Below, piece after piece: positions 35,687-56,188 of a stretch of DNA of 64,000 nt. Numbering within the stretch: the first letter of the stretch is position 1; each line of letters begins with the position of its first letter. Under the pieces are notes generated by a model, which was not told where the DNA came from, ran no database searches, and worked only from the letters and a program-made list of their open reading frames with translations. The stretch is from Bryobacteraceae bacterium (GTDB taxonomy: Bacteria; Acidobacteriota; Terriglobia; Bryobacterales; Bryobacteraceae): contig JACADU010000019.1 of NCBI GenBank assembly GCA_013388415.1, positions 1 through 64,000 of the forward strand. Direction: 5' to 3'. A program made the translations under genes and the position numbers.

Positions 35687-36886
35687 TCACGCTCCCAGCC
35701 GCACCCAACCCCGGCGCGTGAAGTGATAGACGAGCAACCCGGCGGCGAGCCCGACCATGTATCCGTAAGGGACTGAACTGGCAACGACCCCGACGACCAA
35801 CGCGAGGAGGAAGTCAGACCCGCTGCCTGCAAGGTCGCGCAGCAGGGCCAGCAAGGTGATCGCCTCGAACAGCAACAGAACTCCGAGGACGGGCAGCGGG
35901 AAGACCTGGATCACGGTCTGAAAGCCAGGTCCGAAGAATAGGCCCAGCAACACGTACATCGTTCCGTAGATGATGACCGAGCCGCCGGTCCTGCCGCCGA
36001 AGGCGTAATGGCCAGCCATACCGCCTGAGCCGTGGCAGGTCGGAATGCCGCCCAGGAAGGGATTGACGAGGTTCATCAGCGAATAGGTCCAGCCGATGCG
36101 CCGCGCCGTGATGCGCTTCTCGGGAAAGAGGTCTTCGGTGAGCTGCCGTGTGGCGAGCACGGAATTGGTGACGGAAAGCGGAATTTGGGGCAGCGCCAGC
36201 AGAAGGAATCCTGTCCAGACGTCTGGCAAGTTGGGCTGATGCCAAACAGGTAAATGGAACCCTACGGAGCCAAGCAGGGCAGAGCCGCTGAGCTTAAAGG
36301 CGAACGCGTAGGCGACGCCAAAGGCGACCAGAATCACAGCGGCGGGCACGCGCCGGCGCCCGATAAGGAGGAGGGTCACCACAAAACCTGCCGCAGCCAG
36401 CCACCAGCCGGCGCGCCCGTCCGAGGGGACAAAATCCCTGAGCGCGATGCCCGCCAGTTGGAGTCCGAGCCCGCACTGGATGCCGCGTACGACCGGCTTC
36501 GGCACCACGCGGTTGATCCACTCGAGCAACCCCGAAGCCGAAAGCAGCAGCATGCTGACGCCGATGGCAAGACCGCCGCCATAAAGCACGTTCGCGGGTA
36601 ATTTCTGCGCGATGACGAGCGCCGCCATCGCCTTGAGGGGCTGGACCGGCATGGGCATCCGGTAACAGAACGCCGTCGCGATCTGCATCAACCCGAACAC
36701 CGTCAAAACGCTGGCCGCATCGAGGCGGGCGGCCAGAACCATGCCGACGATGAGAGGCAGGTCGGTGCCCAAGTCGCCGAAAGCGCCCGACCACTCCTGG
36801 CGGTTGAAGCGAAAGCGGCTTTCCGGACTGATGGCGGCTGCGCCGGGCGCAGTGGATTGGGCTAGTTGCACCTGTCGTGCTAACAT
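35687..36886 (-). CDS. Putative molybdate transporter (MOT1/SulP-like)
   Basis: FNRQEWSGAFGDLGTDLPLIVGMVLAARLD, FCYRMPMPVQPLKAMAA, PTCHGSGGMAGHYAFGGRTGG motifs. Confidence 0.85.
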   Translation of the reverse strand: MLARQVQLAQSTAPGAAAISPESRFRFNRQEWSGAFGDLGTDLPLIVGMVLAARLDAASVLTVFGLMQIATAFCYRMPMPVQPLKAMAALVIAQKLPANVLYGGGLAIGVSMLLLSASGLLEWINRVVPKPVVRGIQCGLGLQLAGIALRDFVPSDGRAGWWLAAAGFVVTLLLIGRRRVPAAVILVAFGVAYAFAFKLSGSALLGSVGFHLPVWHQPNLPDVWTGFLLLALPQIPLSVTNSVLATRQLTEDLFPEKRITARRIGWTYSLMNLVNPFLGGIPTCHGSGGMAGHYAFGGRTGGSVIIYGTMYVLLGLFFGPGFQTVIQVFPLPVLGVLLLFEAITLLALLRDLAGSGSDFLLALVVGVVASSVPYGYMVGLAAGLLVYHFTRRGWVRLGA

Positions 36887-36934: not shown

Positions 36935-38050
36935 ATGCTTGTCAAGAACCACCTCGCATCTGTCAGGCGGGAGCGCGGTCTTGCCGCCGCGGGCCTGGCG
37001 AAGCGCGTGGGAGTCAGCCGGCAGACGATATATGCGATTGAGTCAGGGAACTATGTTCCGAACACGGCAGTCGCCTTGCGCCTGGCGCACGAGCTGGAGG
37101 TCCCGGTCGAGGCGCTGTTTTCCCTTGCGGAACCAGAGATACCCGCGCGTCCTGAGGCAACGGCAACATTGCTCCAATCCATGGCGAAAGCCGCCGGCAG
37201 GCCCGTGGCGCTTGGAAGGTTGAAGGGCAATCTGGTAGCCGCGCCGCTGGACGGCGCACCTTACTTCCTGCCCGAAGCCGACGGCGTCGCGATGGGGACA
37301 AGCCGGATGTCATCGCAGGTCAGGGTGCAAGTGCTGAGCGAAGCCGGCGAGATTGAAAAGCGGCTGTTCATCGCAGGATGCGATCCGGCGATCGGGCTGC
37401 TGGCGCGGATGACAGAGCGCCTGGCGGGCGTCCAGATTGTGACAATTCCAGCCACGAGCCGCCGGGCGCTTGAATGGCTCCGGAAAGGGATGGTGCATGT
37501 GGCGGGGAGCCACCTGGAAGACCCGGCTTCCGGCGAGTTCAACGTGCCCTATTTGCGCCGGCTGATGCCGGATGGCGAATACTCAGTGTTTACCTTCGCC
37601 CGATGGGAGGAGGGCCTCGTGGTGGCGGCGAAGAATCCGCTGGGGATCCGTCAAGCGCCGGATCTGGCCCGGCGGGGCGTGAGGTTCGTCAACCGGGAAA
37701 CGGGATCCGGCAGCCGGGCGCTTCTGGATTCGATGCTGCGGAAGGCAGGGATCTCCGCAAAGCAGGTGAATGGCTATGAGCGGATGGCAGTGGGGCATCT
37801 GGCAGCGGCCTACGCGGTCGCTTCTGGCAGCGCGGATTGCTGCGTGGCCACTCCATCGGCGGCGCGGGCATTTGGACTTGATTTCGTGCCACTCCAAGCG
37901 GAGCGATTCGACTTTGCAGTCCGGCGGGAGCACCTGGACATGCCGGCGGTGAGACAGCTTCTTGACGTGCTTCAGCGGGCGAGCCTGCGCCGGAAACTGG
38001 AGTCCCTGGCTGGATACGACACGAGTGAAACGGGCCGCGCGATCGCTTAG
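36935..38050 (+). CDS. XRE-type HTH regulator fused to periplasmic-binding-protein-like domain
   Basis: N-terminal HTH (GLAKRVGVSRQTIYAIESGNYVPN) plus PBP-like domain (FVNRETGSGSRALLDSMLRKAGI). Confidence 0.85.
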   Translation: MLVKNHLASVRRERGLAAAGLAKRVGVSRQTIYAIESGNYVPNTAVALRLAHELEVPVEALFSLAEPEIPARPEATATLLQSMAKAAGRPVALGRLKGNLVAAPLDGAPYFLPEADGVAMGTSRMSSQVRVQVLSEAGEIEKRLFIAGCDPAIGLLARMTERLAGVQIVTIPATSRRALEWLRKGMVHVAGSHLEDPASGEFNVPYLRRLMPDGEYSVFTFARWEEGLVVAAKNPLGIRQAPDLARRGVRFVNRETGSGSRALLDSMLRKAGISAKQVNGYERMAVGHLAAAYAVASGSADCCVATPSAARAFGLDFVPLQAERFDFAVRREHLDMPAVRQLLDVLQRASLRRKLESLAGYDTSETGRAIA

Positions 38051-38190: not shown

Positions 38191-41100
38191 TCAGGCCTTG
38201 AACAAGAACACTTTCGAGTCGTAGAAGACCGCGCTGCCGCCGACGACGTCGCTGAGTGGCGACCGCATGTGCTCATCGACATACATGGCCGCATTCGCGT
38301 GCACGCCCATTGCCCTCCGGTGATCGTAAGGGATGACGTCGCCGTCGATGATCTGGTTCGAGGCGCCGTAGGCCCAGTGGCCCCAGCCGAGTTCGAAGGC
38401 GACCACTCCGGGACGGATCCGTTCGGTGGTGCGGACGCGGCCGACCATGGGTTTGCCGAGGCCGGGAGCATAATCCCAGGAGCAGTTCGGGTTCCCGGGA
38501 GAACCGACCCAGGCGTGGTCGTTGTCCTTGAGTCCGAGCCGCAACGCGTCGGAGGGGTGCAAGTAGAGGTAGTTCTCCTCCTGGATGTCAGTGAGCCAGT
38601 AGTTGGAGATGGTCCGGCTCTTGCAGGCCAGCATTGAGCGGTTGGTGATCATGTGCAGCGGAGCGCCCGCATGGTTCAACTCCTGGCCGATCGAGTTCCG
38701 GATGGGCAAATATGCCGCGACGCCTTTCAGATACTGGCCGGTCATGGAGTTGCGGGCGGTCGCCGCTTTCTCGTGATAAAGATTGACGAGTTTCCCATAC
38801 TTGGCCTTCGTCTGTTCGCCTGACCATGCTTCGTTGTAGCTCCACCAGCGGCCGCCGCGGTTGAGGACGTAGACCACCTTTTTCCACCATTCGCCGCCCG
38901 CGGCGCGCTGCCAGGCTTCGGCATCGAACATGGACTTGGGCAGGTGCTTGCGGGCCTGGAGAAACGCAGCCATCTCTTCTTCGTTGGCGTCGGGGCAAAC
39001 ATCGGTCCCGGTGCTCGAATCTCCGTAGGCGATGTTGGCGACCATACGAAGGTAGAAGTCCTCAGGACGTTTCAGGTCGCCCTTGCCGGCGAATCCGCCC
39101 GGACCGAATCCGGGGAGGTTGAGCCGCTCGGCGATCGCCAGGAAGACCGCCTCCATCGAGACCGGCATCTCCTGGCCGTAGACACGAACAGTCTCATTGG
39201 GCGAAGCGACGGCGGGCTGGCGCACCGGTGAAACGCGGTGGACGATGGACGGGTGAGTCCGATGGAACTCCCAGCGCTCGAGGAACGTAAGGTCCGGGAA
39301 GATGTAATCGGCGTAAAGGCTCGTTTCGCCGATCGTGATGTCGCTGCAAACGAATAGAGGGATCTTGTTTGGGTCGGACAGAGTGGGGATCAGGGAGTGG
39401 CCGGCGGGCAAGGCGTAGACTGGAGATCCCATGTAGAGGAACAAGACCTTGATGGGGTAAGGGTAGGCGTCGCCCGCCGAAGGAATGACTTCCTGGTAGA
39501 CGTCGCTCGCCAGCGGATACCACGGCCGCTTCGCCGGGTAGCCCTCAAAAATGGTGCTCTTCTCGTAACTGGCGCCTCCGCGAATGATGTCCAGGCCGAC
39601 CGGCGTGATTTTGGCCGGGTGGTCTCCCAACTGGTAGGGCCGGCCGGTGCCTCCGGTTTCGCCGTAGGCGCCGCCGCCGTAGACGAGCCCGCCTTTCCAA
39701 TCCAGGTTTCCGATGAGCGTGTTGAGCGCGCCCATGGTGGCGAGGACGTTGTAGAAGCCGTTTGTATGCTGTGAAACGCCGCGGTGAATCTCGACGACGG
39801 CCCGCTTTCCGTGAGAGGTGAATTCGCGAGCGACGGCGATGATGTCCATCGAGTCGAGCCCGCAGACGGCGGCCCACTCCTGGATAGTCTTCTGTTTCGA
39901 TTCCTCGAAGAGGATCTGCAGGCCGCTCTTCACCCGGATCCCATTGATGGTGGTATCGACGAGTAGGTCGCCTTCGACAGACTTCGCGGTGTCGTTCGAC
40001 TTGAATGCGACGGGTTTCCCGTCCTTGAGGCAGACGAAAGTGTCGGCGTCGCCCTCAAGTCCCAGTTCCGTGGCGCGGACGAATCCGGCAGCCGAGCCGT
40101 CACTGCGCATTTTGACAAGCCAGGCGCCGTTGCTCCAGGTGGGTTCGCCGTCGGCGGTTGCCGCTGCTTTATTGCAGTTCTCGAGGTATCGCTTGTCGTA
40201 GCGCTGGTTTTCGATGATCCAGCGGATCATCGCCATGGCCATGGCGGCGTCTTCACCCGGCTTGATGGCCAGCCACTTCCAGGCTTTGGCGGCCATTTTG
40301 GTGTGTCTTGGGTCAACGACGACGGCCTTCAGACGCTTGCTGGCGAGGCCGCGCGTGATCTTGGGGACTTTGAGCGGAGGCCCATAGTTGCCTTCGAGCA
40401 CGTTCGCGCCCCAGAAGATGACGAACTCCGCGTTTGTCAGGTCGGCCATCCAATACGCCTTGGCGCCGCCGGTCCACTTGCCGCCCGAGGGCTGCTCTGA
40501 CATCGACTTGCCGGCGAAATAGATCGACCCCTGGCAAACGGTCGTGTGCCCGTGGGCGTTGTTGGATCCGAAACTGTCCTTGACGAACCGGAGGAAAAAG
40601 TCCTGCCGGCCGGCCTTGAGGCGACCCCAATTGAAGACGAACTGATTGTTCTTGGGACCGAAGTCGGGGTGTTCCGGATCGATCAGCGCGTCAAGATGAT
40701 CTTTGTATTTCTCTTTGAACTCCGCCACGGTCATCTTCTTATCCTGGATGGCCGTGATGTCGGTGGCCATGCTGGCGAAGACCTTGGGGTCCTTGAGCGC
40801 ATACAACTCGCGCAAGCCGGGGACGCGCCGGCCTCCATCCTGCGGGAACAGGGCGCCGCCTTCAGTGATTTCCGTGATGGCCTTGTCGAAGGGGATGGTC
40901 GTCCACTTCCCTTCGCCTCGGGCGCCGGCACGCTTAAGGACTTTGATGACGCGATACGGGTCATAGGTTGATTGGATACCCGCCTGGCCCTTCGGACAGA
41001 TGACGCCGTTCAGATTCGCCGCGTCCGCCGCTGGGGTTTTCCAGTCGATGTGCGGGTCCATGGCGCGGGGTCCGTAGGGATTGCCGTCGATCTTCACGGC

Positions 41101-41352
41101 GACGCCGTCCTGGATTCTGACCTTGATCTCGCAACCGGTGTTGCATTGCAGGCACGTGGAATAGATGTAATCGGACGCCTCGCGGGGCTTGGGCGTGACA
41201 CGGCCTTGCTTCCAGTCCTGCGCGGCCTCTCCTTTGAACGCGGCTGCGAGGCAAGCCCCGCCGAGCAGCGCGCCGCTCCGGATCAACTCACGCCGGCCCT
41301 GATCCGCGCGTTGTTGCGCCTTCACATTGCTGTTGTTGATGTCCTGGCTCAT
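38191..41352 (-). CDS. Molybdopterin-dependent oxidoreductase, catalytic subunit, TtrA-like (tetrathionate/arsenate reductase clade)
   Basis: Tat-like GRRELIRSGALLGG; CLQCNTGCEIKVRIQDGVAVKIDGNPYGPR; TTVCQGSIYFAGKSMSEQ; ICPKGQAG. Confidence 0.82.
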   Translation of the reverse strand: MSQDINNSNVKAQQRADQGRRELIRSGALLGGACLAAAFKGEAAQDWKQGRVTPKPREASDYIYSTCLQCNTGCEIKVRIQDGVAVKIDGNPYGPRAMDPHIDWKTPAADAANLNGVICPKGQAGIQSTYDPYRVIKVLKRAGARGEGKWTTIPFDKAITEITEGGALFPQDGGRRVPGLRELYALKDPKVFASMATDITAIQDKKMTVAEFKEKYKDHLDALIDPEHPDFGPKNNQFVFNWGRLKAGRQDFFLRFVKDSFGSNNAHGHTTVCQGSIYFAGKSMSEQPSGGKWTGGAKAYWMADLTNAEFVIFWGANVLEGNYGPPLKVPKITRGLASKRLKAVVVDPRHTKMAAKAWKWLAIKPGEDAAMAMAMIRWIIENQRYDKRYLENCNKAAATADGEPTWSNGAWLVKMRSDGSAAGFVRATELGLEGDADTFVCLKDGKPVAFKSNDTAKSVEGDLLVDTTINGIRVKSGLQILFEESKQKTIQEWAAVCGLDSMDIIAVAREFTSHGKRAVVEIHRGVSQHTNGFYNVLATMGALNTLIGNLDWKGGLVYGGGAYGETGGTGRPYQLGDHPAKITPVGLDIIRGGASYEKSTIFEGYPAKRPWYPLASDVYQEVIPSAGDAYPYPIKVLFLYMGSPVYALPAGHSLIPTLSDPNKIPLFVCSDITIGETSLYADYIFPDLTFLERWEFHRTHPSIVHRVSPVRQPAVASPNETVRVYGQEMPVSMEAVFLAIAERLNLPGFGPGGFAGKGDLKRPEDFYLRMVANIAYGDSSTGTDVCPDANEEEMAAFLQARKHLPKSMFDAEAWQRAAGGEWWKKVVYVLNRGGRWWSYNEAWSGEQTKAKYGKLVNLYHEKAATARNSMTGQYLKGVAAYLPIRNSIGQELNHAGAPLHMITNRSMLACKSRTISNYWLTDIQEENYLYLHPSDALRLGLKDNDHAWVGSPGNPNCSWDYAPGLGKPMVGRVRTTERIRPGVVAFELGWGHWAYGASNQIIDGDVIPYDHRRAMGVHANAAMYVDEHMRSPLSDVVGGSAVFYDSKVFLFKA

Positions 41353-41361
41353 GGCGTCCTC

Positions 41362-42291
41362 CTAGTAGTGGCAAACGCTGCAATCGATATGCGCCGCATC
41401 GGGCATTGGTTCTTCGAAGTAGATGACGCGCGGAGTCAGTCCCATGTCGGTGTGGCCGCGAAAGACGCGGCGGCCCTGAGTGATCTCCTGAACCAGGCTG
41501 GAGGGGTTGTTCGCGTCACCGAAGTACATGGCGCCGCCGACGCAGGTGCTGACGCATGCCGGCAGCACTCCGATATCGAGGAGATGGCTACAGAAGGTGC
41601 ACTTCCGCGCCGAGTCCTTCAGGTCGTTGGCGCCGGGTTTGCGGCTGTGCACCTCGCCGTTTTCAACAAACGCGCGAAGCTCGTAAGGTTGCTGCGACGG
41701 CGTACTTTCGGTAAACGTCTTCCCATCGTCGATGGTGATGAGTTTCAGGGGGCACGCTTGCGCTGCCGCCGAGGCGTACGAACCTTTCAGTTTTTTGTGA
41801 TCGAACTCGACGATGCCATCGGGCCTCTTCCAGATCATGCCGGCGGGCACGGCTTTCGCACAGGGGGCGTTCTCGCATTGCAGGCAGTTGACAGGCTTAA
41901 AGACCGCCCAGGCGCCCACGCTCGGCCCGTGTTCTTTCTGAATCACGCGGCGGAAGTTGCCGCCAGGCCCGGTGGGGTTTTCAGCGCGGCAGGCGACGGT
42001 GCAGGCGTCGCAGCCGATGCACTTGCGGGTGTCGACGACCATCAGCCAACTGGGAGTCCGCCCGCTGGCGATGGTCTGTTCCAGTTCCTGCTGCATGCGG
42101 GCAACCAGACGACCGCTTGGTTCAGCCAGGACGGCTGGGAGTTCCGCGGCCTCGGCCTTTTTCGATTCGAGCATCTTCATGCCCACCAGGCCCGTCACCG
42201 CCCCTGATCCGAGGCTTGCCAGCGCATGGAAGAAACGGCGCCGTCCGGAATCCTTTGGGGGGATTTTCGTCTTATCGATGGTCTCGGCCAT
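41362..42291 (-). CDS. 4Fe-4S ferredoxin subunit, TtrB-like
   Basis: Tat-like GRRRFFHALASLG; CIGCDACTVACRAEN and further cysteine clusters; C-terminal CSVCHY. Confidence 0.85.
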   Translation of the reverse strand: MAETIDKTKIPPKDSGRRRFFHALASLGSGAVTGLVGMKMLESKKAEAAELPAVLAEPSGRLVARMQQELEQTIASGRTPSWLMVVDTRKCIGCDACTVACRAENPTGPGGNFRRVIQKEHGPSVGAWAVFKPVNCLQCENAPCAKAVPAGMIWKRPDGIVEFDHKKLKGSYASAAAQACPLKLITIDDGKTFTESTPSQQPYELRAFVENGEVHSRKPGANDLKDSARKCTFCSHLLDIGVLPACVSTCVGGAMYFGDANNPSSLVQEITQGRRVFRGHTDMGLTPRVIYFEEPMPDAAHIDCSVCHY

Positions 42292-42588: not shown

Positions 42589-43002
42589 TCAGACGGACTT
42601 CGAGAACTCCTCGACGCGAGCCTTGATTTGATCGCGGATGCGGCGGAAGGCGGCGAGACGGGCTGCCTCGTCACCTTCGACTGCGGCGGGGTCTTCGAAG
42701 CTCCAGTGCACGCGCCGGGCATTGCCCGGAAAATACGGACAGTTCTCTTTCGCGTTGTCGCAGACGGTCACGATGTAGGCGAACTCACGCGAGAGGAATT
42801 CATCCACCGGTTTTGAGCGATGAAAGGAGATGTCGATGCCCAGCTCGGCCATGACGGCGATGGCTTCCGGGCGCACAGAGCTCGGCTTGGTCCCCGCGCT
42901 GTGGATCTCGAATCGATGGCCCAGGTAATGCCGGAAGAGCCCTTCGCCCATCTGGCTGCGCGCGGAGTTCCCGGTGCAAAGAACGAGGATGGCTGGAAGC
43001 AT
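42589..43002 (-). CDS. arsC: Arsenate reductase (thioredoxin-coupled LMW-PTP family)
   Basis: LVLCTGNSARSQMGEGLFRHYLGHRFEIHSAGTKPS; VTVCDNAKENCPYFPG. Confidence 0.93.
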   Translation of the reverse strand: MLPAILVLCTGNSARSQMGEGLFRHYLGHRFEIHSAGTKPSSVRPEAIAVMAELGIDISFHRSKPVDEFLSREFAYIVTVCDNAKENCPYFPGNARRVHWSFEDPAAVEGDEAARLAAFRRIRDQIKARVEEFSKSV

Positions 43003-43005
43003 GAT

Positions 43006-43833
43006 TCAGGGCTTTCTGGCGCGAATAAAGGCGCTCATGAACTTTCCGTCGACCATCGGGGCGATGGCGTCGACATCAATCCCTTCCGCCGTCAGGAACT
43101 CGCGAGCGTCCTCGACGTGATAAACGCGGGTCGGCTCAACCTCGATGGCGGTAAACCCAGCTTGAGCGAGCTTGCTGATGTATTCGGTCTCCTCCAAAGC
43201 GCCGGCGATACACCCCACCCAGAGTTCAACATTGCGCCGGATATTGGAGGGAATCTCGCCGCGGACGACCACGTCGGAGACGGCGAATCGTCCGCCGGGT
43301 TTGAGCACGCGGAAGGCTTCGGCCAGGACCCTGTCCTTGTCGGCGGAGAGGTTGATGACGCAGTTGGAAATGATGACGTCGACGGAGTTGTCAGGCAGCG
43401 GGATGTGTTCGATTTCGCCCTTCAGGAATTCGACGTTCTGCACGCCTGCCTTCCGTTGGTTTTCTCGCGCGAGCGCCAGCATCTCATCGGTCATATCCAG
43501 ACCGTAGGCTTTGCCGGCGGGCCCGACGCGGCGGGCCGAGAGCAGGACGTCGATGCCTCCGCCGCTGCCGAGATCCAGCACCACTTCGCCCGGCTTCAAT
43601 TCGGCCAAGGCCGTCGGGTTGCCGCACCCGAGCGAGGCAAGCACGGCAGTCTCAGGCAGCTCGCTCTTCTGAAGTTCGTCATAAAGACCCGAAGTGATTG
43701 GATCGACGCTCTCCGAACCGCAGCAGGAGGACGGCGCTGCACCGCAGCACGCGCTTCCCGTACCCGATGCGACGCGAAGCGCCGCCTGGCCGTACTTCTC
43801 CTTGACAACTTCTTTCACATTTTGAGCACTCAT
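43006..43833 (-). CDS. arsM: Arsenite S-adenosylmethionine methyltransferase
   Basis: Cys-rich GSACCGAAPSSCCGSES; GEVVLDLGSGGGIDVLLSARRVGPAGKAYGLDMTDEML; SNCVINLSADKDRVLAEAFRVLKPGGRFAVSDVV. Confidence 0.95.
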   Translation of the reverse strand: MSAQNVKEVVKEKYGQAALRVASGTGSACCGAAPSSCCGSESVDPITSGLYDELQKSELPETAVLASLGCGNPTALAELKPGEVVLDLGSGGGIDVLLSARRVGPAGKAYGLDMTDEMLALARENQRKAGVQNVEFLKGEIEHIPLPDNSVDVIISNCVINLSADKDRVLAEAFRVLKPGGRFAVSDVVVRGEIPSNIRRNVELWVGCIAGALEETEYISKLAQAGFTAIEVEPTRVYHVEDAREFLTAEGIDVDAIAPMVDGKFMSAFIRARKP

Positions 43834-44105
43834 AGACCCTTCCTGATCTCCTTCCCGTAGAACTCACGAAACCGTTTTCTGATTTCATCCCGCGCCATGC
43901 TTCCCACTTCCTTCATTGCCTCATCGGAGAACGGATTGACCCGTGGCGCGGGGTCTGTCACCGCCGAATCAACCTCCGGGCGCGGGTCGAAGGATTCGAG
44001 AAACCTCTCTGTCAACTGGCTGCGAGGGTAGTTGCCCGCGCACAGGACCAGAACCCGTTTGCGGCCTCCTTCGGCGTATGCCAGCACCGCGGCCATCAAA
44101 CACAC
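43830..44105 (-). CDS. Miniature LMW-PTP/ArsC-like protein
   Basis: Retains VLVLCAGNYPRSQL (CX5R) but only about 90 aa and lacks a clear C-terminal half of the fold. Confidence 0.6.
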   Translation of the reverse strand: MCLMAAVLAYAEGGRKRVLVLCAGNYPRSQLTERFLESFDPRPEVDSAVTDPAPRVNPFSDEAMKEVGSMARDEIRKRFREFYGKEIRKGL

Positions 44106-44136
44106 AACTGCCGTCCTGAATGAAATCCGCCTCCCC

Positions 44137-44487
44137 TTAGCACTCTTTGCAGAATTGAGCGATCTCTTCCGGCGTGATCACCTTGTTCCTCGCACAGCAC
44201 TCTTCGTAGAGAAAAGCCAGCAGTTCACGCAAAACCTGGGTGTTGGCGCTGTACCAGAGGTATGTGCTCTCCCTTCGAACGTTGACCAGGTCCTCGTTCT
44301 TCAACTTCTCGAGGTGGTGAGACAACGTCGATGGGGGAATGCCAAGTTCGGCTTGGATGTCTCCGACCACCATCCCGCCGGGATGAGCACTCAGAAGGAG
44401 CCGGATGATCCTCAAGCGCGGCTCCGTGCCCATCGCCGCCAGCATGTCGGCGAAGCGCGCGGTCTGATCGATCATCTTATCGGCCAT
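44137..44487 (-). CDS. arsR: ArsR-family regulator
   Basis: wHTH (GDIQAELGIPPSTLSHHLEKLKNEDLVNVRRESTYLWYS); likely start at internal ATG 44487. Confidence 0.9.
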   Translation of the reverse strand: MADKMIDQTARFADMLAAMGTEPRLRIIRLLLSAHPGGMVVGDIQAELGIPPSTLSHHLEKLKNEDLVNVRRESTYLWYSANTQVLRELLAFLYEECCARNKVITPEEIAQFCKEC

Positions 44488-44497
44488 TAATTCTATG

Positions 44498-44510
44498 ATA
44501 GCCGAACTAT
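44498..44510. promoter_or_regulatory. Candidate operator for the 44487 ArsR gene
   Basis: Inverted repeat ATAG-CCGAA-CTAT 11 bp upstream of the start codon. Confidence 0.4.
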
Positions 44511-44614
44511 GGAAAAAGGCAAGCGCCAAGTTCGTTTGCGGGCGCGTGTCACGGCCAAGGGCCAAGCCCGGTTGCTTTTCAGATCTACATGTCTTATATC
44601 TGGTGCGTGACTAC

Positions 44615-44630
44615 TTGGCCCAATGGCCAA
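44615..44630. promoter_or_regulatory. Candidate operator (inverted repeat)
   Basis: TTGGCC-CAAT-GGCCAA perfect inverted repeat, near-identical to the site at 48306-48323. Confidence 0.65.
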
Positions 44631-44658
44631 TTATCAAATGAATAAGGGAGTCTTATCC

Positions 44659-45204
44659 ATGGATACATACGGCTGGCTGTTCGATCCAAAGCGCTGCATA
44701 GAATGCAGCGCATGCGAGGCCGCCTGCAAGCAGTGGAATAAGGTGCCTGTCGGCGCCGGCATCCGGCTGCGGAGGGTGCGCGTTTTCGAGGACGGAGTCT
44801 TTCCGCAGACGAAGGTGCTCGCGCTTTCGATGGCCTGCAACCATTGCGACAACGCGCTCTGCACCCGGGTGTGCCCGGTGAAGGCGATGCACAAGCGGCC
44901 AGACGGCATTGTGGTGGTGGACACAGAAGCTTGTGTGGGATGCGGACAGTGCTTCCAGTTCTGCCCTTACGGCGCGCCGCAGATGAACATGGCCGCACGG
45001 AAGACCTACAAATGCACGATGTGCGCCGACCGCATCGACCAGAACTTAATGCCTGCCTGCGCCACCGTGTGCCCGACCGGGGCGTTGCAGTGGGGCAAGT
45101 GGGACGAAATCGCCGGCAAGGGCGCGGATTGTGTGGGCCACTTCAACAGCCCGTCGCTCACCCAGCCGCATATACGCTTTCAAAGCGCGGAGTGGGGCTC
45201 GTAG
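44659..45204 (+). CDS. 4Fe-4S dicluster electron-transfer subunit (DmsB/PsrB-like)
   Basis: CIECSACEAACKQW, CNHCDNALCTRVCP, CVGCGQCFQFCPYGAP, CTMCADRIDQNLMPACATVCP; ATG 44659 with AAGGGAG upstream. Confidence 0.9.
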   Translation: MDTYGWLFDPKRCIECSACEAACKQWNKVPVGAGIRLRRVRVFEDGVFPQTKVLALSMACNHCDNALCTRVCPVKAMHKRPDGIVVVDTEACVGCGQCFQFCPYGAPQMNMAARKTYKCTMCADRIDQNLMPACATVCPTGALQWGKWDEIAGKGADCVGHFNSPSLTQPHIRFQSAEWGS

Positions 45205-45213
45205 GAGGACGCC

Positions 45214-47448
45214 ATGCCAACACTGACAAGAAGAAGCGTATTGCGCAACGCGGCTGGAGCGGGGACGCTCTGCGCGCTGTCGCCGGACAAGGTTTTCGCC
45301 GAGTTCTTCCAACCGGCCTCGCGCGCCCTTTATCCGCCGGATTCGCTCGTCACCTGCTGCGGCATCTGCGACTCGGCCTGCGGCATCCGCGCCACGGTCG
45401 CCGACGGCGTGGTGCAGTTCCTCCAGGGGCTGCCGGAGGACTTCCAGGGCGGCGGCGCTCTTTGCGCGAAGGGGACGGCGGGAGCGGCGCTGATGTACGA
45501 CCCGGACCGGCTCAAGTATCCGATGAAGCGCACGAACCCGGTGAAGGGGCTGGGAGTGGACCCAGGCTGGGTCAGGATTTCGTGGGAGGAGGCTCTCGAT
45601 ACGATCGCGACGCGCTTCAAGGCGATTCTCGATCAATACGGCAACGAGGCTCTTCTGGCGGTCGCCAGGCCCAAGCCTGAGTTGCTGGTTCGCTTTATCA
45701 AGTCCCTGGGTATGACGCGGGTCGACCACAACGACACCTGCTATGGGGTGGAGAAGGTCATCCAGAAGTATACGGTCGGCCCCAAGTCCTTCGGGCATGA
45801 CTTCGAGAACAGCAAGTATGTGCTGCTGTTTGGTTGGGACCTGATCGCAAAAAACAAGATTGTGTTCGCGCGCGGGCTGCACCAGGCGAAGTCCAACGGG
45901 GCGAAGGTGATCTGCTTTAATCCTCACCGAACGGCCACGGCCCGGTTTGCAGACGAGTGGCATCCGATCCGGCCGGGCTCCGATCTGGCGGCCGTGCTCG
46001 CCATCATCCATGTTCTTGTTCAGGAGAACCTTTACAACAAGGAGTTCGTGGAGGCCTATACGAACTTCAGCCAGTACGAAGCGCAGATTCGAGAGCACTT
46101 CGCCAGGTACTCGCCGGAATGGGCGGAGCAGCAGTGTGACGTCCCGGCGCAGGATCTGCGGCGCATTGCGCGGGAGTTTGCCGCGAACGGCCCCGCCATC
46201 GTTCCCGTTCACAAAAAGACGCCGGCGACCAACTACGCCAACGCCAGCCAACTCACGCATGCTCTTTCCATCCTCAATATCCTTGCGGGGACCATTGACC
46301 GGCCTGGCGGGCGATACGATGCGCGGATGTTCAAGCTCGCCGCCTTGGACGCCATCTATCCGCCGCCTAAGTATCCGGCGCCCGCGGCGAAGCGTGTGGA
46401 CGGACGCGAGAAGTTGCCATTGGCGAACGAGAGCGACTTCGGAATGTTCACGACCCTCGCCGACGGAATGCTGCGGGTGTATCCCGGCCGGACCAAAGGA
46501 GTCTTCTGGTACGGGTACAGCATCCTGAGCTTCCCTCAGCCGGAGAAGATGGCTGAAGCCCTCAAGACCGTGGATTTCATGGCGATCGTGGATGTTTTGC
46601 CGGCGGACGCGACCTACTTCGCCGACATAGTGCTGCCGAACGCGATGTACCTGGAGGGCAATGATCTCGTGGAACGGGATTACGCCGCGAAAATGCCTCA
46701 GGTGATCGCCCGGCAGGCGCTGGTCGCGCCGCAATTCGAAGCGAAAACGACGGGGTGGATCTGTGTCGAACTTGGCAAGCGGCTCGCACCCGACTTTTTC
46801 AGGAAGCCCGACGGCAACTGGATCAACCCGGGCGAGGTTCTTGATGAAAAGCTTCGCCGGGCTGGGCTCGCCGAGAGCTTCGCGGAGTTCAAGAAGACCG
46901 GCATCGCCACCAAAGCGGCCGAGTTCGTGCCGGCCACGAAGTTTGGAGCCCCGGGCGGCAAGTGCCAGATTTACGTGCCCGAGTTCGCTGCGAAAGGTTA
47001 TGACGCCCTGCCACACTGGCGTCCGAAGCGCGAGGAGCCAAACGCAGACTACCCCTTCTACCTCTTGACCTACCTGCCAGGCACGCACAAGCGGAATTCG
47101 ACGCAGAACAATCGAATTCTGAACGAGATCATGCCGGAGAACACCGCCTTGATCAATCCTGCGCTGGCTGGAAAGCTGGGCGTCAAGGAAGGGCAGCGGG
47201 TGCGGATTCGCTCCAAGGACGGCGCAATCGTGCTGACCGCTCACTTGACGGAGACGCTGCGGCCGGACTGCGTCAAGATCGCCCATGGCTTCGGTCATGT
47301 CTCGCCGCTGCTGAGTGCGGCGTCCGGCCGAGGCGCCCGCGACAATGACTTGATCGGGACTCAGACGCCCGAGGCCATGCTGGCCGCGGGCAACTTCGCG
47401 GGCTCCGGCGCAATCATGGACGCGGTGGTGCGGATCGAGCCGCTCTAG
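45214..47448 (+). CDS. Molybdopterin-dependent oxidoreductase (DMSO reductase superfamily, PsrA/PhsA-like)
   Basis: Tat-like TRRSVLRNAAGAG; CCGICDSACGIRATV; ALCAKGTAG; WVRISWEEALDTIA. Confidence 0.88.
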   Translation: MPTLTRRSVLRNAAGAGTLCALSPDKVFAEFFQPASRALYPPDSLVTCCGICDSACGIRATVADGVVQFLQGLPEDFQGGGALCAKGTAGAALMYDPDRLKYPMKRTNPVKGLGVDPGWVRISWEEALDTIATRFKAILDQYGNEALLAVARPKPELLVRFIKSLGMTRVDHNDTCYGVEKVIQKYTVGPKSFGHDFENSKYVLLFGWDLIAKNKIVFARGLHQAKSNGAKVICFNPHRTATARFADEWHPIRPGSDLAAVLAIIHVLVQENLYNKEFVEAYTNFSQYEAQIREHFARYSPEWAEQQCDVPAQDLRRIAREFAANGPAIVPVHKKTPATNYANASQLTHALSILNILAGTIDRPGGRYDARMFKLAALDAIYPPPKYPAPAAKRVDGREKLPLANESDFGMFTTLADGMLRVYPGRTKGVFWYGYSILSFPQPEKMAEALKTVDFMAIVDVLPADATYFADIVLPNAMYLEGNDLVERDYAAKMPQVIARQALVAPQFEAKTTGWICVELGKRLAPDFFRKPDGNWINPGEVLDEKLRRAGLAESFAEFKKTGIATKAAEFVPATKFGAPGGKCQIYVPEFAAKGYDALPHWRPKREEPNADYPFYLLTYLPGTHKRNSTQNNRILNEIMPENTALINPALAGKLGVKEGQRVRIRSKDGAIVLTAHLTETLRPDCVKIAHGFGHVSPLLSAASGRGARDNDLIGTQTPEAMLAAGNFAGSGAIMDAVVRIEPL

Positions 47449-48240: not shown

Positions 48241-48305
48241 TTGACGAGCGGGCGATATGCCGGTCCTTTCCCGCTAGTCTCTTCATTTTGCAGGCACTAT
48301 GCATT

Positions 48306-48336
48306 CTTGGCAAAATGGCCAAGTAGTTGCTATAAT
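48306..48336 (+). promoter_or_regulatory. Candidate ArsR promoter/operator
   Basis: CTTGGC-AAAATG-GCCAAG (48306-48323) overlaps a -35-like TTGGCA; TATAAT at 48331-48336 with 18-nt spacing. Confidence 0.65.
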
Positions 48337-48343
48337 GAGAGCG

Positions 48344-48670
48344 ATGGACGCCAGGACACAAGCTCGATTCGAGGCCCGGGCGAAGGTCTTCAAGGCTCTC
48401 GCTCATCCCTCAAGGTTGTTTATGGTCGACGTCCTCTCCCAAGGCGAGCGGTGTGTTTGCGAACTCACCGCCATGGTGGGCGCGGACATGTCCACGGTCA
48501 GCAAGCATCTCTCGGTTCTGAAAGCGGCGGGCATCGTGTCCGATAGCAAGCGAGGCATGCAGGTTTACTACAAACTCAAGATGCCCTGTGTGCTGCGATT
48601 GTTCGACTGCGTCGGAGAGGTGCTGAGTCGAAGCGCGGAAGAGCAGGCGGCACTGGCTTCCACCCGCTGA
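48344..48670 (+). CDS. ArsR-family regulator
   Basis: KVFKALAHPSRLFMVDVLSQGERCVCELTAMVGADMSTVSKHLSVLKAAGIVSDSKRGMQVYYKL; contains ERCVCEL metal-site-type motif. Confidence 0.93.
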   Translation: MDARTQARFEARAKVFKALAHPSRLFMVDVLSQGERCVCELTAMVGADMSTVSKHLSVLKAAGIVSDSKRGMQVYYKLKMPCVLRLFDCVGEVLSRSAEEQAALASTR

Positions 48671-48934: not shown

Positions 48935-49333
48935 ATGAAGATTACGTCGAAATGCTCATGTAGCGGGTCTCCAGACCTCCTGTTCTGTTGCTCCGGGGCG
49001 GCTGATACGGCCGAAATCGGCGATCGCGCGGTCCGGCTGCTGCACAAGGCCAAAGACGCGAAGATGTTTTGCCTTGCGGGAATCGCTGGCGGCGTGGAGC
49101 TGATCATGACGAACACACAAGCTGCCGGACGGCTGATTGTTGTCGACGGTTGTGACAGCGATTGCGCCAAGCTGACCATGGAAAAGAGCGGCTTCACCGG
49201 CTTTTCCCATTTCCGGGTGACAGACCTCGGGTGGGAAAAGGGCAAGACTCCGGTGACCGAAGAGAGGATTACTGAGGCCGCTGAACGACTGCGCCAGATT
49301 CTGGCGGCTGCGCCGGTGAGTGCCGAGGCATGA
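48935..49333 (+). CDS. Putative zinc-binding (DGC-domain-like) protein
   Basis: Cys-rich CSCSGSPDLLFCCSGAADTAEIGDRAVR; VVDGCDSDCAK. Confidence 0.75.
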   Translation: MKITSKCSCSGSPDLLFCCSGAADTAEIGDRAVRLLHKAKDAKMFCLAGIAGGVELIMTNTQAAGRLIVVDGCDSDCAKLTMEKSGFTGFSHFRVTDLGWEKGKTPVTEERITEAAERLRQILAAAPVSAEA

Positions 49334-49824
49334 ACCGGCGCAACACTCTCACCGGCGTGTTGCTGGCCTTCGTGGCGGTGAGCTTCGGCTTCCTTGCGCT
49401 CCGCAGCCTGAAGGCGGCCAAGTCCTGGCGGGCTCCCCAGACGGCACAGGCCGCCTCCATCGCGCCGGACATCGAAAAACGCGCCGCAAGCAAGGTGATC
49501 GCTTACTACTTTCACGTCACGGTCCGATGCGCGACCTGCCGCGCGATCGAAGCGTATTCGAAGCAGGTGATCCACGAAAGGTTCGCCAAGGAGTTGACTT
49601 CCGGCCAGCTTGAGTGGCGCCTCGTGAATGTCCAACTGCCGGAGAACCGTCACTTCATCAACGACTACCAGCTCTTCACGAAATCGTTGGTGCTCGTGCG
49701 GGAGGCCGGGGGGCGGCAGAAAGAGTTCAAGGTGCTGAACGACACCTGGGAACTGGTTGGAGACAAGGTCGCGATGCAGCGGTACGTCGAGAAGGAGGTC
49801 CGCGAGTACCTGCGGAAGCTGTGA
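49330..49824 (+). CDS. ArsF-like thiol-redox protein, membrane-anchored
   Basis: N-terminal TM; VIAYYFHVTVRCATCRAIEAYS; ATGA overlap with the upstream gene; resembles ArsF family of arsEFG clusters. Confidence 0.7.
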   Translation: MNRRNTLTGVLLAFVAVSFGFLALRSLKAAKSWRAPQTAQAASIAPDIEKRAASKVIAYYFHVTVRCATCRAIEAYSKQVIHERFAKELTSGQLEWRLVNVQLPENRHFINDYQLFTKSLVLVREAGGRQKEFKVLNDTWELVGDKVAMQRYVEKEVREYLRKL

Positions 49825-50531
49825 TGGAGGAACTCGGATCGGGCGCGACACTGGTTGCGGCGGGAACGGCCTTCTGGCTGGGGGTGTTGACCTCGATCAG
49901 CCCTTGTCCGCTTGCGTCCAACATTGCCGCGATTTCCTACGTTGGGAAAGGTCTCGCGAAGCCTCGCCGCGTGCTTGCCGCGGGCGTCCTCTATACGGCC
50001 GGCCGCGTGCTGACTTACGCGCTGTTGGGTTGGCTGCTGGCCGCAAGTCTGGCGAGTATTGCCGGCGTGTCCAACAACCTGCAAGGCGTGATGAACCAGC
50101 TCCTGGGCCCGATTCTCATCCTGGCCGGCATGTTCATGCTCGAGCTGCTGCGATTCGGGAGGGGATCCGGAACGGCAGGTGGACGGGTGGCGGAGATGGC
50201 CGCTGCATGGGGGCTCGGAGGCGCAGTTGCGCTTGGAGCCTTGTTTGCGCTCTCATTTTGCCCGGTCTCGGCCGCCCTTTTCTTCGGCAGCCTTATCCCG
50301 CTTGCAGTGAGCAGCGCGAGTCCGGTGATCATGCCCTCGTTATACGGAGTGGGAACCGGATTGCCGGTGCTTGCCTTTGCCGCGCTGTTCAGCCTTGGAG
50401 CCGGCGCGCTGAGCAGAAGTTTTGAACGGATCACCAGGCTGGAACTTTGGGCACGCCGCGTGACTGGCGTCGTGTTCATTCTGGTTGGGCTCTACTATGC
50501 GCTCAACTACGTATTCGAAGTCCTTCCCTAG
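49824..50531 (+). CDS. CcdA/DsbD-like permease, ArsG-like
   Basis: 6-TM protein GVLTSISPCPLASNIAAISYVG, FALSFCPVSAALFFGSLIP; TGATG overlap with the upstream gene. Confidence 0.75.
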   Translation: MEELGSGATLVAAGTAFWLGVLTSISPCPLASNIAAISYVGKGLAKPRRVLAAGVLYTAGRVLTYALLGWLLAASLASIAGVSNNLQGVMNQLLGPILILAGMFMLELLRFGRGSGTAGGRVAEMAAAWGLGGAVALGALFALSFCPVSAALFFGSLIPLAVSSASPVIMPSLYGVGTGLPVLAFAALFSLGAGALSRSFERITRLELWARRVTGVVFILVGLYYALNYVFEVLP

Positions 50532-50542
50532 AAGGAGGTGTC

Positions 50543-51238
50543 ATGTCATCGCAGTGGAGCAGACGAACTCTCATTGGGGCGGCCGGAGCGACGCCGCTGT
50601 TTGCCGGTCAGGCGTCGCAGCCCGCCTCGGGTCAAACCTCGAAAGAGATCAAGATCATCGGGGTGAGTTGCAGTCCACGCCGGGACCGCACGACGGCGGC
50701 CGCAGTGCGCGAGTGTCTGGAGGCGGCGAAGGCGTCCTCGGCCGGCGTGGAGGTGGAGTTGATCGACCTCGGCGGCCTGAAGATCAATGGGGACCTAGCC
50801 GCGGGAATCCCATTGGCCGCCGGAGAACGGGACGATTTCCCGCAAATTGAAGCGAAGCTCCGCGCGCCGAACGTTGCCGGGATCATCGTTGGCACGCCGG
50901 TCTACTTCAGCAACATGAGCGCGCTGTGCAAGGCGTTTCTGGACCGGTGGATGGCGTTCCGGCAGGCCTTCGCGCTGCGCAACAAAGTAGGCGGCGCGAT
51001 CGCGGTTGGCGCGGCGCGCAACGGCGGGCAGGAATTGACTTTGCAGACAATCCACGCCGCCATGCTTTGCCAGGACATGATCATCGTGAGCGAGGGCAGG
51101 CCCACTTCGCGGCTGGGCGGGATCCTTGTCAGCGCGAAGGACGACATCAGTTCCGATTCGGCAGGGCTCGCGACGGCTCAGAGCCTGGGCCGCCGCGTGG
51201 CCGAAGTGGCCAAGGCGATACGGGCAGGAGGCTTGTAG
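50543..51238 (+). CDS. NADPH-dependent FMN reductase-like flavoprotein with Tat-like signal
   Basis: SRRTLIGAAGATPLF leader; IIGVSCSPRRDRTTAAAVRECLEAA, GIIVGTPVYFSNMSALCKAFLDR; AGGAGG upstream of ATG. Confidence 0.85.
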   Translation: MSSQWSRRTLIGAAGATPLFAGQASQPASGQTSKEIKIIGVSCSPRRDRTTAAAVRECLEAAKASSAGVEVELIDLGGLKINGDLAAGIPLAAGERDDFPQIEAKLRAPNVAGIIVGTPVYFSNMSALCKAFLDRWMAFRQAFALRNKVGGAIAVGAARNGGQELTLQTIHAAMLCQDMIIVSEGRPTSRLGGILVSAKDDISSDSAGLATAQSLGRRVAEVAKAIRAGGL

Positions 51239-51281
51239 ACATTTCCGCGAGAACGCCGGTCGGGCGCACGAGGTGAATCCG

Positions 51282-51509
51282 ATGCAATGCATGGAATGCG
51301 CGAAGTCTGGAATGAGGCGGGAGGCAGTAGCGCTATGCCACTGCTGCTCCGCGGGACTGTGTCTCGAACACGCGGAAGTGGCGCCGAAGAGGCTGGAACG
51401 CGTGGCGCCTTTGTGCAAGGTGGAAGACCTGCCGGTCCAGGCGCGCGCCGTTCTTTGCCACGTCTGCCGCACGGCATTGCAGCAACGCCACCTGCCGCTG
51501 TCCGCCTGA
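51282..51509 (+). CDS. DUF2180-like zinc-ribbon small protein
   Basis: MQCMECAKSGMRREAVALCHCCSAGLCLEHAEV. Confidence 0.8.
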   Translation: MQCMECAKSGMRREAVALCHCCSAGLCLEHAEVAPKRLERVAPLCKVEDLPVQARAVLCHVCRTALQQRHLPLSA

Positions 51510-51521
51510 GGAACGTACTGG

Positions 51522-52499
51522 ATGAGCCCTTTTGCCCTCTTCGATTGGCTTGCCCGCTGGCTGGTGACTTCGGTCTTCGGGCTGGGTCTTGATTCGCACC
51601 TGGGCGCGAGCATTCACTTCTTTTTCTATGACGTGCCGAAAGTGATGACGCTGCTGATCGGCATCAGCTTCTTGGTGGGGACCTTGCAGACCTGGCTGCA
51701 GCCGGAATCCGTCCGCAGATGGCTCGGTGGAAGGCGAACCATCCTGGGCAATGTTCTCGCAGCCTGCGTCGGCATTGTCACGCCGTTCTGTAGCTGTTCG
51801 GCGGTGCCGCTCTTCATCGGTTTCCTGAAAGGCGGGGTGCCGCTCGGCGTCACGTTCTCTTACCTGATTTCGGCGCCGATGGTCAACGAGGTCGCCGTCG
51901 CGCTGCTGTGGGGCCTGTTTGGATTCAAGGTGACTGCCACCTATGTCGCGTTTGGGGTGACACTGGCCATCGCCGCCGGGTTCATCATCGGCATGTTGCG
52001 GCTCGAGAAATGGGTGGAGCAGTTTATCTGGCAAATACCGGCGGTGGATGCCGATGCGGAGGCATCCACGCCTCGGCTGACTCTTCGGGAGAGGGCCGGC
52101 GAGGGATGGCGGTCTTCGCGCGAAATCTTCGGCTCGGTCTGGCCGTACATCGTTTTGGGCATCGGCGTGGGGGCGGGCATTCACGGCTACGTTCCCGAAG
52201 ACCTGATCGCGCGCTTCGCGGGGCCGCAGAACGCCTTTGCGGTGCCCATCGCGGTGCTGGTTGGGGTGCCGCTTTACGCCAACGTCGCCGGTGTTCTGCC
52301 GATCACGGAGGCGCTGGCCGGCAAGGGCCTGCCGCTGGGCACAGTGCTTTCCTTCACAATGGCCGTGACGGCGCTTTCGCTGCCTGAGATGATTATCCTG
52401 CGCAAAGTGCTGCGGCCGCAATTGCTCGCTGTCTTCATCGCCATCATGACCGCTGGCATCATCGGTGTCGGCTATCTCTTCAACGCGCTCATGACTTGA
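51522..52499 (+). CDS. ArsP-like (DUF318) permease
   Basis: NVLAACVGIVTPFCSCSAVPLFIGFLKGGVPLGVTFSYLISAPMVNEVAV. Confidence 0.87.
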   Translation: MSPFALFDWLARWLVTSVFGLGLDSHLGASIHFFFYDVPKVMTLLIGISFLVGTLQTWLQPESVRRWLGGRRTILGNVLAACVGIVTPFCSCSAVPLFIGFLKGGVPLGVTFSYLISAPMVNEVAVALLWGLFGFKVTATYVAFGVTLAIAAGFIIGMLRLEKWVEQFIWQIPAVDADAEASTPRLTLRERAGEGWRSSREIFGSVWPYIVLGIGVGAGIHGYVPEDLIARFAGPQNAFAVPIAVLVGVPLYANVAGVLPITEALAGKGLPLGTVLSFTMAVTALSLPEMIILRKVLRPQLLAVFIAIMTAGIIGVGYLFNALMT

Positions 52500-52515
52500 C
52501 TCAGGAGAATGCCTT

Positions 52516-54912: not shown

Positions 54913-55099
54913 AATCCTCAGATGAAATGCGCAACCATGAAGATTCAATCAGCAGGGGCTGGGGAGAAGCTGTCGGGACCGGCACGCCTTCAGGCGCTCT
55001 TTCTCGACTTCGCGCCCTTTCCTGCTCGCTTGTCTGAACTGGCCCTGTGCCGCCCGGATGCGGCTGAGAACAGCTTACGAGAGTCTTGAGGTATTCACA

Positions 55100-56188
55100 A
55101 TGGAACAGCTTTCGGTTGAGACGACCCCTAAGAGGCTTAACTTCTTCGAGCGGTACCTGAGCCTCTGGGTGGCCGCATGCATGCTTGTGGGGGTGCTCAT
55201 CGGCAAACTGGCGCCCGGATTGGTGGACGCCTTCCGGCGCATGGAGTTCGGGTCCGGAAGCCAGATCAATGTTCCAATCGCGGTGCTCATCTGGCTGATG
55301 ATTATCCCAATGATGATGAAGGTTGATTTCACTTCCATCCGGGATGTTGGGCGGCGGCCGAAGGGCCTGCTGGTCACGCTTTTCGTGAACTGGGTGGTGA
55401 AACCGTTTTCGATGGCGCTGATCGGGTGGTTCTTCTTCCGGCTGGTGTTTTCGGCATGGATCTCGCCGTCGGAGGCGGATCAGTACATCGCGGGCGTCAT
55501 CATCCTTGCGGCCGCCCCTTGCACAGCGATGGTCTTCGTGTGGAGTTACCTGACCGACGGGGACCCGGCATACACACTCGTCCAGGTTTCGGTCAATGAC
55601 CTGATTATGCTGGTTCTGTTTGCGCCGATTGTTCGATACCTGGTGAGCGGCGCCTCATCGCTCTCCGTGCCATTCATGGTGCTGCTTTACTCGGTCGTTG
55701 CGTTCATCGTGATCCCGCTGACGGTAGGCTCGATCCTCAGAGCGTTCCTGATCCACCGGCACGGCAAGGACTGGTTCGAGAACACGCTTTTGCCCCAACT
55801 CGCGCCCATGACGATTCTGGCCTTGCTTGCGACATTGGTCTTCATCTTCGCGTTCCAGGCTGACAACATCACCAGCAAGTTCTTCCATGTCGTCTTGATT
55901 GCCATTCCGATCCTGATCCAGGTCTACTTCAATTCATCGCTGGCGTACGGGCTCATGCGGCTGTTCAAGGTGGAGTTCTCCATTGCCGCTCCTGGAGCGT
56001 TAATCGGGGCAAGTAACTTCTTTGAACTCGCGGTTGCGACCGCGATCGCCTTGTTCGGCCCGGGTTCGGGCGCAGCGCTGGCCACGGTCGTCGGCGTGCT
56101 CGTGGAGGTGCCCGTTATGCTCTCCGTTTGCGCGGCTTGTAACCGCACACGGCACTGGTTCGCTTTCAAGCCGTCGGCAGGACGGTAA
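55100..56188 (+). CDS. acr3: ACR3-family arsenite efflux transporter
   Basis: FFERYLSLWVAACMLVGVLIGKLAPG, DFTSIRDVGRRPKGLLVTLFVNWVVKPFSMALIGWFF, AAPCTAMVFVWSYLTDGDPAYTLVQVSVNDLIML. Confidence 0.95.
   Translation: MEQLSVETTPKRLNFFERYLSLWVAACMLVGVLIGKLAPGLVDAFRRMEFGSGSQINVPIAVLIWLMIIPMMMKVDFTSIRDVGRRPKGLLVTLFVNWVVKPFSMALIGWFFFRLVFSAWISPSEADQYIAGVIILAAAPCTAMVFVWSYLTDGDPAYTLVQVSVNDLIMLVLFAPIVRYLVSGASSLSVPFMVLLYSVVAFIVIPLTVGSILRAFLIHRHGKDWFENTLLPQLAPMTILALLATLVFIFAFQADNITSKFFHVVLIAIPILIQVYFNSSLAYGLMRLFKVEFSIAAPGALIGASNFFELAVATAIALFGPGSGAALATVVGVLVEVPVMLSVCAACNRTRHWFAFKPSAGR

Follow-up and report, generated by a model that had tools for sequence, protein, structure and literature searches.

An anchorless TtrBA-like molybdoenzyme in a Bryobacteraceae arsenic island, with an iron-sulfur subunit that lacks the FS4 cysteines and ends in a CXXCH motif

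The ttrBA pair

The 64,000-nt stretch of DNA analyzed here (hereafter, the window) belongs to a soil acidobacterium assembly that is 84% complete and whose closest named relatives are Bryobacteraceae (Acidobacteriota). Its minus strand carries two intact open reading frames (ORFs) in the order ttrB-ttrA (41362-42291 and 38191-41352), separated by 9 bases, which encode an iron-sulfur (Fe-S) subunit and a molybdenum (Mo) catalytic subunit. The top-scoring profile of both proteins is that of tetrathionate reductase (Ttr; 511.7 bits for TtrA and 115.2 bits for TtrB). A reading of the window from its sequence only had described a TtrAB-like module without a TtrC/NrfD membrane anchor, and our analysis agrees: neither the gap between the two genes nor their flanks hold an NrfD/TtrC gene, and the NrfD hidden Markov model matched nothing in the window. 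A contig-edge artefact was ruled out, because B-C-A operons place NrfD between B and A, which are adjacent here. Two NrfD genes were found on other contigs of the genome; since each sits within its own Fe-S operon, an anchor encoded elsewhere was rejected as well.

We then compared the pair with related loci retrieved by scanning one genome per species. A total of 80 loci were kept (49-84% identity over the best segment) and they span Acidobacteriota, Chloroflexota, Omnitrophota, Planctomycetota, Bacillota, Nitrospirota, Myxococcota, archaea and others. The genome paper of Carboxydocella leaves its TtrA unmentioned.

Loss of FS4 and gain of a CXXCH tail in TtrB

The TtrB-like protein carries a Tat signal (GRRRFF) and 14 cysteines, all of which were assigned: 12 to three clusters and two to the C-terminal tail. 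Among the 80 aligned TtrB sequences, 12 of the 16 cluster cysteines were kept without exception, and the other four were all-or-none, present in 51 sequences and absent in 29. The variable positions align with C79, C99, C102 and C105 of E. coli DmsB and with C196, C217, W220 and C223 of NarH; the assignment of DmsB C102 and NarH W220 to cluster FS4 is established. On the basis of this alignment, we assign the four lost cysteines as the ligands of FS4, which neighbors the membrane anchor. In EbDH, with clusters arranged much as in NarGHI, electrons pass successively through FS0 to FS4 before they reach the heme of the anchor (PMC8840923).

Most of the FS4-less proteins have gained a second feature. 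We observed a C-terminal CXXCH motif in 25 of the 29 FS4-less TtrB sequences relative to none of the 51 FS4-bearing ones. C304, C307 and H308 are invariant across the 25 tailed sequences and the motif is restricted to one clade, which rules out a chance heme motif. This suggests that the tail of TtrB binds a heme covalently. The AlphaFold model of TtrB (mean predicted local distance difference test, pLDDT, of 75) has a confident core that resembles ArrB and PsrB, with ArrB (6cz7) as the top fold match; these predicted similarities are as expected and do not decide the mechanism.

The anchor gene follows the same division. NrfD was found at none of the 29 FS4-less loci and at 41 of the 51 FS4-bearing loci (P = 1e-13, uncorrected for relatedness; Fisher test). 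The window TtrB presents all the marks of the FS4-less, heme-tailed class: four lost FS4 cysteines, a C-terminal CXXCH and no NrfD. These patterns indicate that the lack of an anchor is inherited across a whole TtrB class and is no accident.

The FS4 loss has a precedent. The beta subunit of the soluble periplasmic formate dehydrogenase (FDH) of Desulfovibrio, FdhAB, also lacks the four FS4 cysteines that are present in the membrane-bound FdnH of E. coli, and these soluble enzymes, which are oxidizing, pass their electrons to c-type cytochromes. FS4 loss is therefore already known with soluble, cytochrome-linked enzymes. However, FdhAB belongs to another catalytic family, acts on another substrate and shows no CXXCH tail in our alignments, and the fused heme tail, if it is one, is an added step beyond the FS4 loss of soluble FDH. 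We found no published description of a heme tail on a TtrB-type subunit in a literature search that covered only a minority of subscription papers. What is new here, judging from the alignments, is thus the rewired TtrB itself with its FS4 loss and its CXXCH tail; arsenic is a plausible candidate substrate.

Evolution of the two subunits

The FS4-less TtrB proteins form one clade with a support of 99.6 in a tree from which the columns of the FS4 region and of the tail were removed. In contrast, monophyly is rejected for the matching TtrA proteins (P = 0.00066; approximately unbiased, AU, test), and a single origin of the whole FS4-less operon was therefore rejected for TtrA. Because of this rejection, the trees suggest that the FS4-less B subunit has had partners from at least two A lineages. 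The deep backbone of the TtrA tree is weak and poorly resolved.

Five loci (L056, L085, L089, L093 and L100), found in Thermodesulfobacteriota, Nitrospirota and others, present an FS4-bearing TtrB with no NrfD detected. In the TtrB tree they branch close to the FS4-less clade, and they perhaps represent an intermediate state; small triheme ORFs lie near three of them.

The catalytic subunit

The TtrA-like protein has a Tat signal (GRRELIRS), four FS0 cysteines (67, 70, 74 and 119) and a Mo-ligand cysteine, Cys273, in the loop HGHTTVCQGS. The pair resembles the TtrABC system of the Salmonella type in the order B..A, in the Tat signals of both subunits, in the cysteine Mo ligand and in the best profile of both subunits, but it differs by the absence of TtrC, the missing FS4 ligands, the CXXCH tail and a score well under the TtrA equivalog cut-off (1750 bits; NCBIfam NF011567). 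For comparison, two TtrA-type references encoded on plasmids (L109 and L111) scored 1413 and 1218 bits on the same model. The protein also missed the cut-offs of ArrA (99.1 bits relative to 1600; NF041714) and PhsA (196.6 bits relative to 694; NF012032), and AioA (TIGR02693; cut-off of 359 bits) was not among its matches. A bona fide TtrA, ArrA, AioA or PhsA is ruled out by these curated cut-offs.

The protein is about 32-35% identical to the TtrA-type proteins found on plasmids of Citrobacter, Pseudomonas, Azospirillum and haloarchaea. The loop HGHTTVCQGS is common to the window protein and to the 19 other representative clade members that we aligned, and it differs in all four plasmid references; that of ArrA reads SHSSVCAEAHK. 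The sequence-only reading had named, as an outcome that would speak against it, a firm position in the TtrA clade with activity on tetrathionate only; with its low identity and score, the window protein did not take such a position. We place it, from these comparisons, in a widespread TtrA-like clade whose members have this Mo-site loop in common.

A separate arsenic-linked TtrA lineage was observed on the conjugative plasmid of Citrobacter arsenatis (L108), where a TtrA-type B-C-A operon directly adjoins arsDABC. Its TtrA-type protein is 32% identical to that of the window and has another Mo loop.

The arsenic island

The genes arsC, arsM and arsR lie directly upstream of ttrBA on the same strand (42589-44565), as had been noted from the sequence, but the arsenic neighborhood is larger than was then recognized (Table 1). 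The island comprises two arsR genes, arsM, arsC, ArsF, ArsG, ArsP_1 and ACR3, and the models of ArsF, ArsG and ACR3 were all above their cut-offs (49330-56188). No other ArsM above the cut-off was found in the genome. The row formed by the DGC-domain protein, ArsF and ArsG (48935-50531) is reminiscent of the arsEFG nitroarsenical cluster of Shewanella.

Table 1. Features at and around the ttrBA locus (positions in the window)
Feature	Position	Strand	Basis
TtrA-like Mo-bisPGD (bis-pyranopterin guanine dinucleotide) catalytic subunit, 1053 aa, predicted Tat export, Mo-ligand Cys273	38191..41352	-	profiles, alignment, relatives 49-84% identical in many phyla
Signature HGHTTVCQGS, residues 267-276 of TtrA-like, with the Mo-ligand Cys	40525..40554	-	alignment
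TtrB-like Fe-S subunit, 309 aa, predicted Tat export, three [4Fe-4S] sites (12 cluster Cys)	41362..42291	-	profile, alignment
Erased FS4 site of TtrB: V148, L168, A173, A176 at the positions of DmsB C79, C99, C102, C105	41764..41850	-	alignment
Putative heme-c motif CSVCH of TtrB, residues 304-308; protein ends in CSVCHY	41368..41382	-	C304, C307, H308 invariant in 25 tailed sequences
arsC, thioredoxin-type arsenate reductase (arsC_pI258 type)	42589..43002	-	139 bits, under cut-off of 174
arsM, arsenite methyltransferase	43006..43833	-	377 bits, cut-off 263
Truncated ArsC/low-molecular-weight-phosphatase-like ORF, 91 aa, between arsM and arsR and on their strand; probably a second, degenerate arsC	43830..44105		
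arsR-family regulator, transcribed divergently from the second molybdoenzyme	44137..44565	-	profile
Fe-S subunit (DmsB type) of the second molybdoenzyme, all 16 cluster Cys retained	44623..45204	+	by inspection
Catalytic Mo subunit of the Psr/Phs type (744 aa) with a Tat-like N-terminus; anchor gene absent	45214..47448	+	profile
Second arsR-family regulator	48299..48670	+	profile
DGC-domain protein, possibly ArsE from its position	48935..49333	+	
ArsF-family protein	49330..49824	+	106 bits, cut-off 60
ArsG-family permease	49827..50531	+	265 bits, cut-off 200
NADPH-dependent FMN reductase family	50540..51238	+	
ArsP_1-type permease	51522..52499	+	
Octaheme c-type cytochrome (7 CXXCH + 1 CX4CH) with 5 hydrophobic segments at the C-terminus; candidate partner in electron transfer	52516..54912	+	
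ACR3 arsenite efflux pump, sole ACR3 found in the genome	55058..56188	+	model cut-off passed
MOT1-type molybdate transporter	35687..36886	-	
HTH + PBP-like regulator, possibly molybdate-responsive	36935..38050	+	

We counted core ars genes within about 10 kb of ttrAB at loci of at least 15 kb, using as controls 40 stretches of 20 kb from Acidobacteriota. Core ars genes were found at 4 of 19 FS4-less loci (P = 0.0085) and none of the controls; they were also found at 7 of 29 FS4-bearing loci (P = 0.0014), a comparison that is unmatched since the controls were drawn from Acidobacteriota only. Among the annotated neighbors, it is mainly ars genes that recur around FS4-less ttrAB.

When we searched the phylum to which an Ignavibacteriales locus belongs, we retrieved a further member of the clade, TtrA of Melioribacter roseus (MROS_1076), which is 50% identical to the window TtrA over its full length and has an identical HGHTTVCQGS loop. 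The gene order that we found there (arsRPCB, ArrTSR-type genes, ttrBCA) agrees with the published one (PMC5492636). TtrBCA of M. roseus (MROS_1074-1076; PMC5492636, PMC3534657) thus adjoins an ars operon as in the window, but no ArrTSR sensor system was seen in the window and the M. roseus complex has no CXXCH tail. The transcripts of its ttrA and psr/phsA were almost negligible without arsenate and strongly increased with arsenate (PMC5492636). Taken together, the neighborhood and this relative make an arsenic role probable for the island of the window; for the whole FS4-less class such a role is no more than possible.

In Anaeromyxobacter sp. PSR-1 (L098), two ttrBA-type copies lie within about 10 kb of each other, and the locus also contains arsM and an ArsR-family gene.

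Candidate redox partners

Multiheme cytochrome genes were found within 6 kb of ttrA at 8 of the 35 loci without detected NrfD, relative to 1 of the 41 loci with NrfD (P = 0.007). In the window, the candidate is the octaheme cytochrome encoded just upstream of ACR3. Relatives of this protein (at least 70% identity) are present in 3 of 6 related genomes with ttrAB, the source genome included, and in none of the 55 without (P = 6e-4). The octaheme gene adjoins ACR3 in two genomes, that of the window and G018, and in a third (G025) about 5 kb separate it from ttrAB. It is only weakly similar to octaheme tetrathionate reductases (45 bits; cut-off of 375). These associations point to the octaheme cytochrome as a possible redox partner of TtrBA.

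The second molybdoenzyme of the window (44623-47448) is also anchorless and is divergent from arsR over a short gap. Like the FS4 loss and the CXXCH tail of TtrB, it had escaped the sequence-only reading. This Psr/Phs-like enzyme was detected in 4 of the 6 relatives with ttrAB and in 2 of the 55 others (P = 4e-4). At one related locus (L049), a pair 59-61% identical to it flanks ttrBA. The best match to the window Psr/Phs-type protein in M. roseus is 34% identical.

Proposed function and alternatives

We propose that TtrBA would be a soluble, Tat-exported periplasmic enzyme in which wiring to quinones gave way to wiring to cytochrome c. Within TtrA, electrons would travel between Mo and FS0; within TtrB, they would then pass through FS1, FS2 and FS3. 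The single heme c of the TtrB tail would replace FS4 and the NrfD anchor, and it would exchange electrons with periplasmic or membrane c-type cytochromes, the octaheme protein being a candidate. The enzyme would serve an arsenic island presumably controlled by ArsR. We consider it an evenly balanced proposition that TtrBA is such a soluble, c-type cytochrome-linked enzyme with arsenite/arsenate as its most likely substrate pair. Concerning the direction of the reaction, our preference for arsenite oxidation into cytochrome c over arsenate reduction is slight and held at close to even confidence: it arises because FS4 has been lost in the oxidizing FDH precedent and retained in the anchorless ArrB.

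Several observations weigh against this proposal. Four of the 29 FS4-less TtrB proteins (L040, L042, L053 and L074) have no intact CXXCH, two of which adjoin multiheme genes, and the tail of the window TtrB was modeled with low confidence (pLDDT of about 54). The octaheme cytochrome is missing in half of the relatives with ttrAB. No core ars gene was found within 10 kb at 15 of the 19 FS4-less loci with long flanks, and arsenic may therefore be a lineage-specific association; the unmatched controls noted above add to this caution. Finally, the Ttr complex of M. roseus keeps FS4, and thus all four TtrB clusters, as well as NrfD; its expression data tilt toward arsenate reduction, and only the induction of psr/phsA was clearly significant (PMC5492636).

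The same soluble, cytochrome-linked enzyme could instead work as an arsenate reductase, with electrons passing from quinol to a multiheme cytochrome, the tail heme and the Mo site, in a respiratory or auxiliary route as proposed for the Ttr of M. roseus. This alternative is a substantial one, although we consider it on balance improbable by a modest degree. Arsenate-induced Ttr-type enzymes occur in both M. roseus and P. aerophilum (PMC5492636), an archaeal arsenate reductase is listed within the TtrA/SrdA lineage (PMC7331816), and the octaheme cytochrome with its membrane segments could be the quinol-side donor. ArrAB of Shewanella offers a comparison, as an anchorless Mo/Fe-S pair linked to periplasmic cytochromes. 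It differs from the window pair by its order ((C)AB rather than B-A), its Mo loop and its ArrA score, and our alignment indicates that ArrB, although fed by a cytochrome, keeps the FS4-type cysteines; FS4 loss is therefore no known mark of reductases. Soluble FDH, the precedent for a lost FS4, is an oxidizing enzyme, and the periplasmic reduction of arsenate would raise the local arsenite concentration.

A sulfur-compound enzyme acting on tetrathionate, thiosulfate or polysulfide, and lying by chance beside ars genes in a few Bryobacteraceae, is an unlikely alternative. The nearest named profile is indeed TtrA, most FS4-less loci have no nearby ars genes, and TtrA-like genes, those of Acidobacteriota included, usually receive a sulfur-enzyme annotation (PMC8528874). 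However, the score far under the TtrA cut-off, the low identity to the TtrA-type references and the different Mo loop argue against it, as do the recurrence of ars genes near FS4-less ttrAB and the tie that M. roseus provides between the clade and arsenate. The sequence-only reading had suggested an alternative arsenate, tetrathionate or organoarsenical enzyme; its arsenic component gains support from the neighborhood statistics and from the M. roseus relative, but the three chemistries are not separable by sequence.

It is less likely still that the CXXCH tail binds no heme and has a structural or metal-binding role, with the enzyme docking on a separate cytochrome through its FS3 face. The low predicted confidence of the tail would fit this possibility, and so would the four FS4-less TtrB proteins without intact CXXCH, which keep a histidine near their C-terminus (CKSQHP, AAYHT). 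Against it stand the invariant C304, C307 and H308, the full assignment of the cysteines of the window TtrB and the status of CXXCH as the canonical heme-c site of exported proteins. The least probable alternative is an enzyme for selenate, antimonite or organoarsenicals, either of the SrdA kind or working on aromatic arsenicals together with ArsF/ArsG: SrdA was placed in the same broad lineage (PMC7331816) and ArsF and ArsG sit in the island, but these two are rare in related loci (an ArsG fragment only, at L031) and the NrfD-type anchor of SrdBCA is absent at the window locus.

With respect to known arsenite oxidases, AioAB is a soluble periplasmic enzyme often found in arsenic islands that donates electrons to cytochrome c, and its AioB is a Rieske protein rather than a multi-cluster TtrB-type subunit. 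No AioA above the cut-off was found in any of the six genomes with ttrAB. A broader hypothesis is that the FS4-less, heme-tailed TtrB is an adapter of single origin that joined several TtrA lineages and made their quinone-linked enzymes soluble and linked to cytochrome c, and that in Bryobacteraceae arsenic islands it yielded a third kind of molybdenum arsenite oxidase besides Aio and Arx. The hypothesis was drawn because the FS4-less TtrB is one clade while TtrA rejects one; in its entirety we regard it as speculative and rather unlikely.

If the substrate is arsenic, a widespread bacterial group would gain an arsenic redox route that surveys of arrA, arxA and aioA have missed. Independently of the substrate, the class may provide a rule that can be read from sequence: FS4 kept together with NrfD would indicate a quinone-linked enzyme, and FS4 lost together with a CXXCH tail would indicate a cytochrome-c-linked one. 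Such a rule would correct annotations of tetrathionate reductases with a missing ttrC, one of which, in marine Acidobacteriota, was put down to the end of a contig (PMC8528874).

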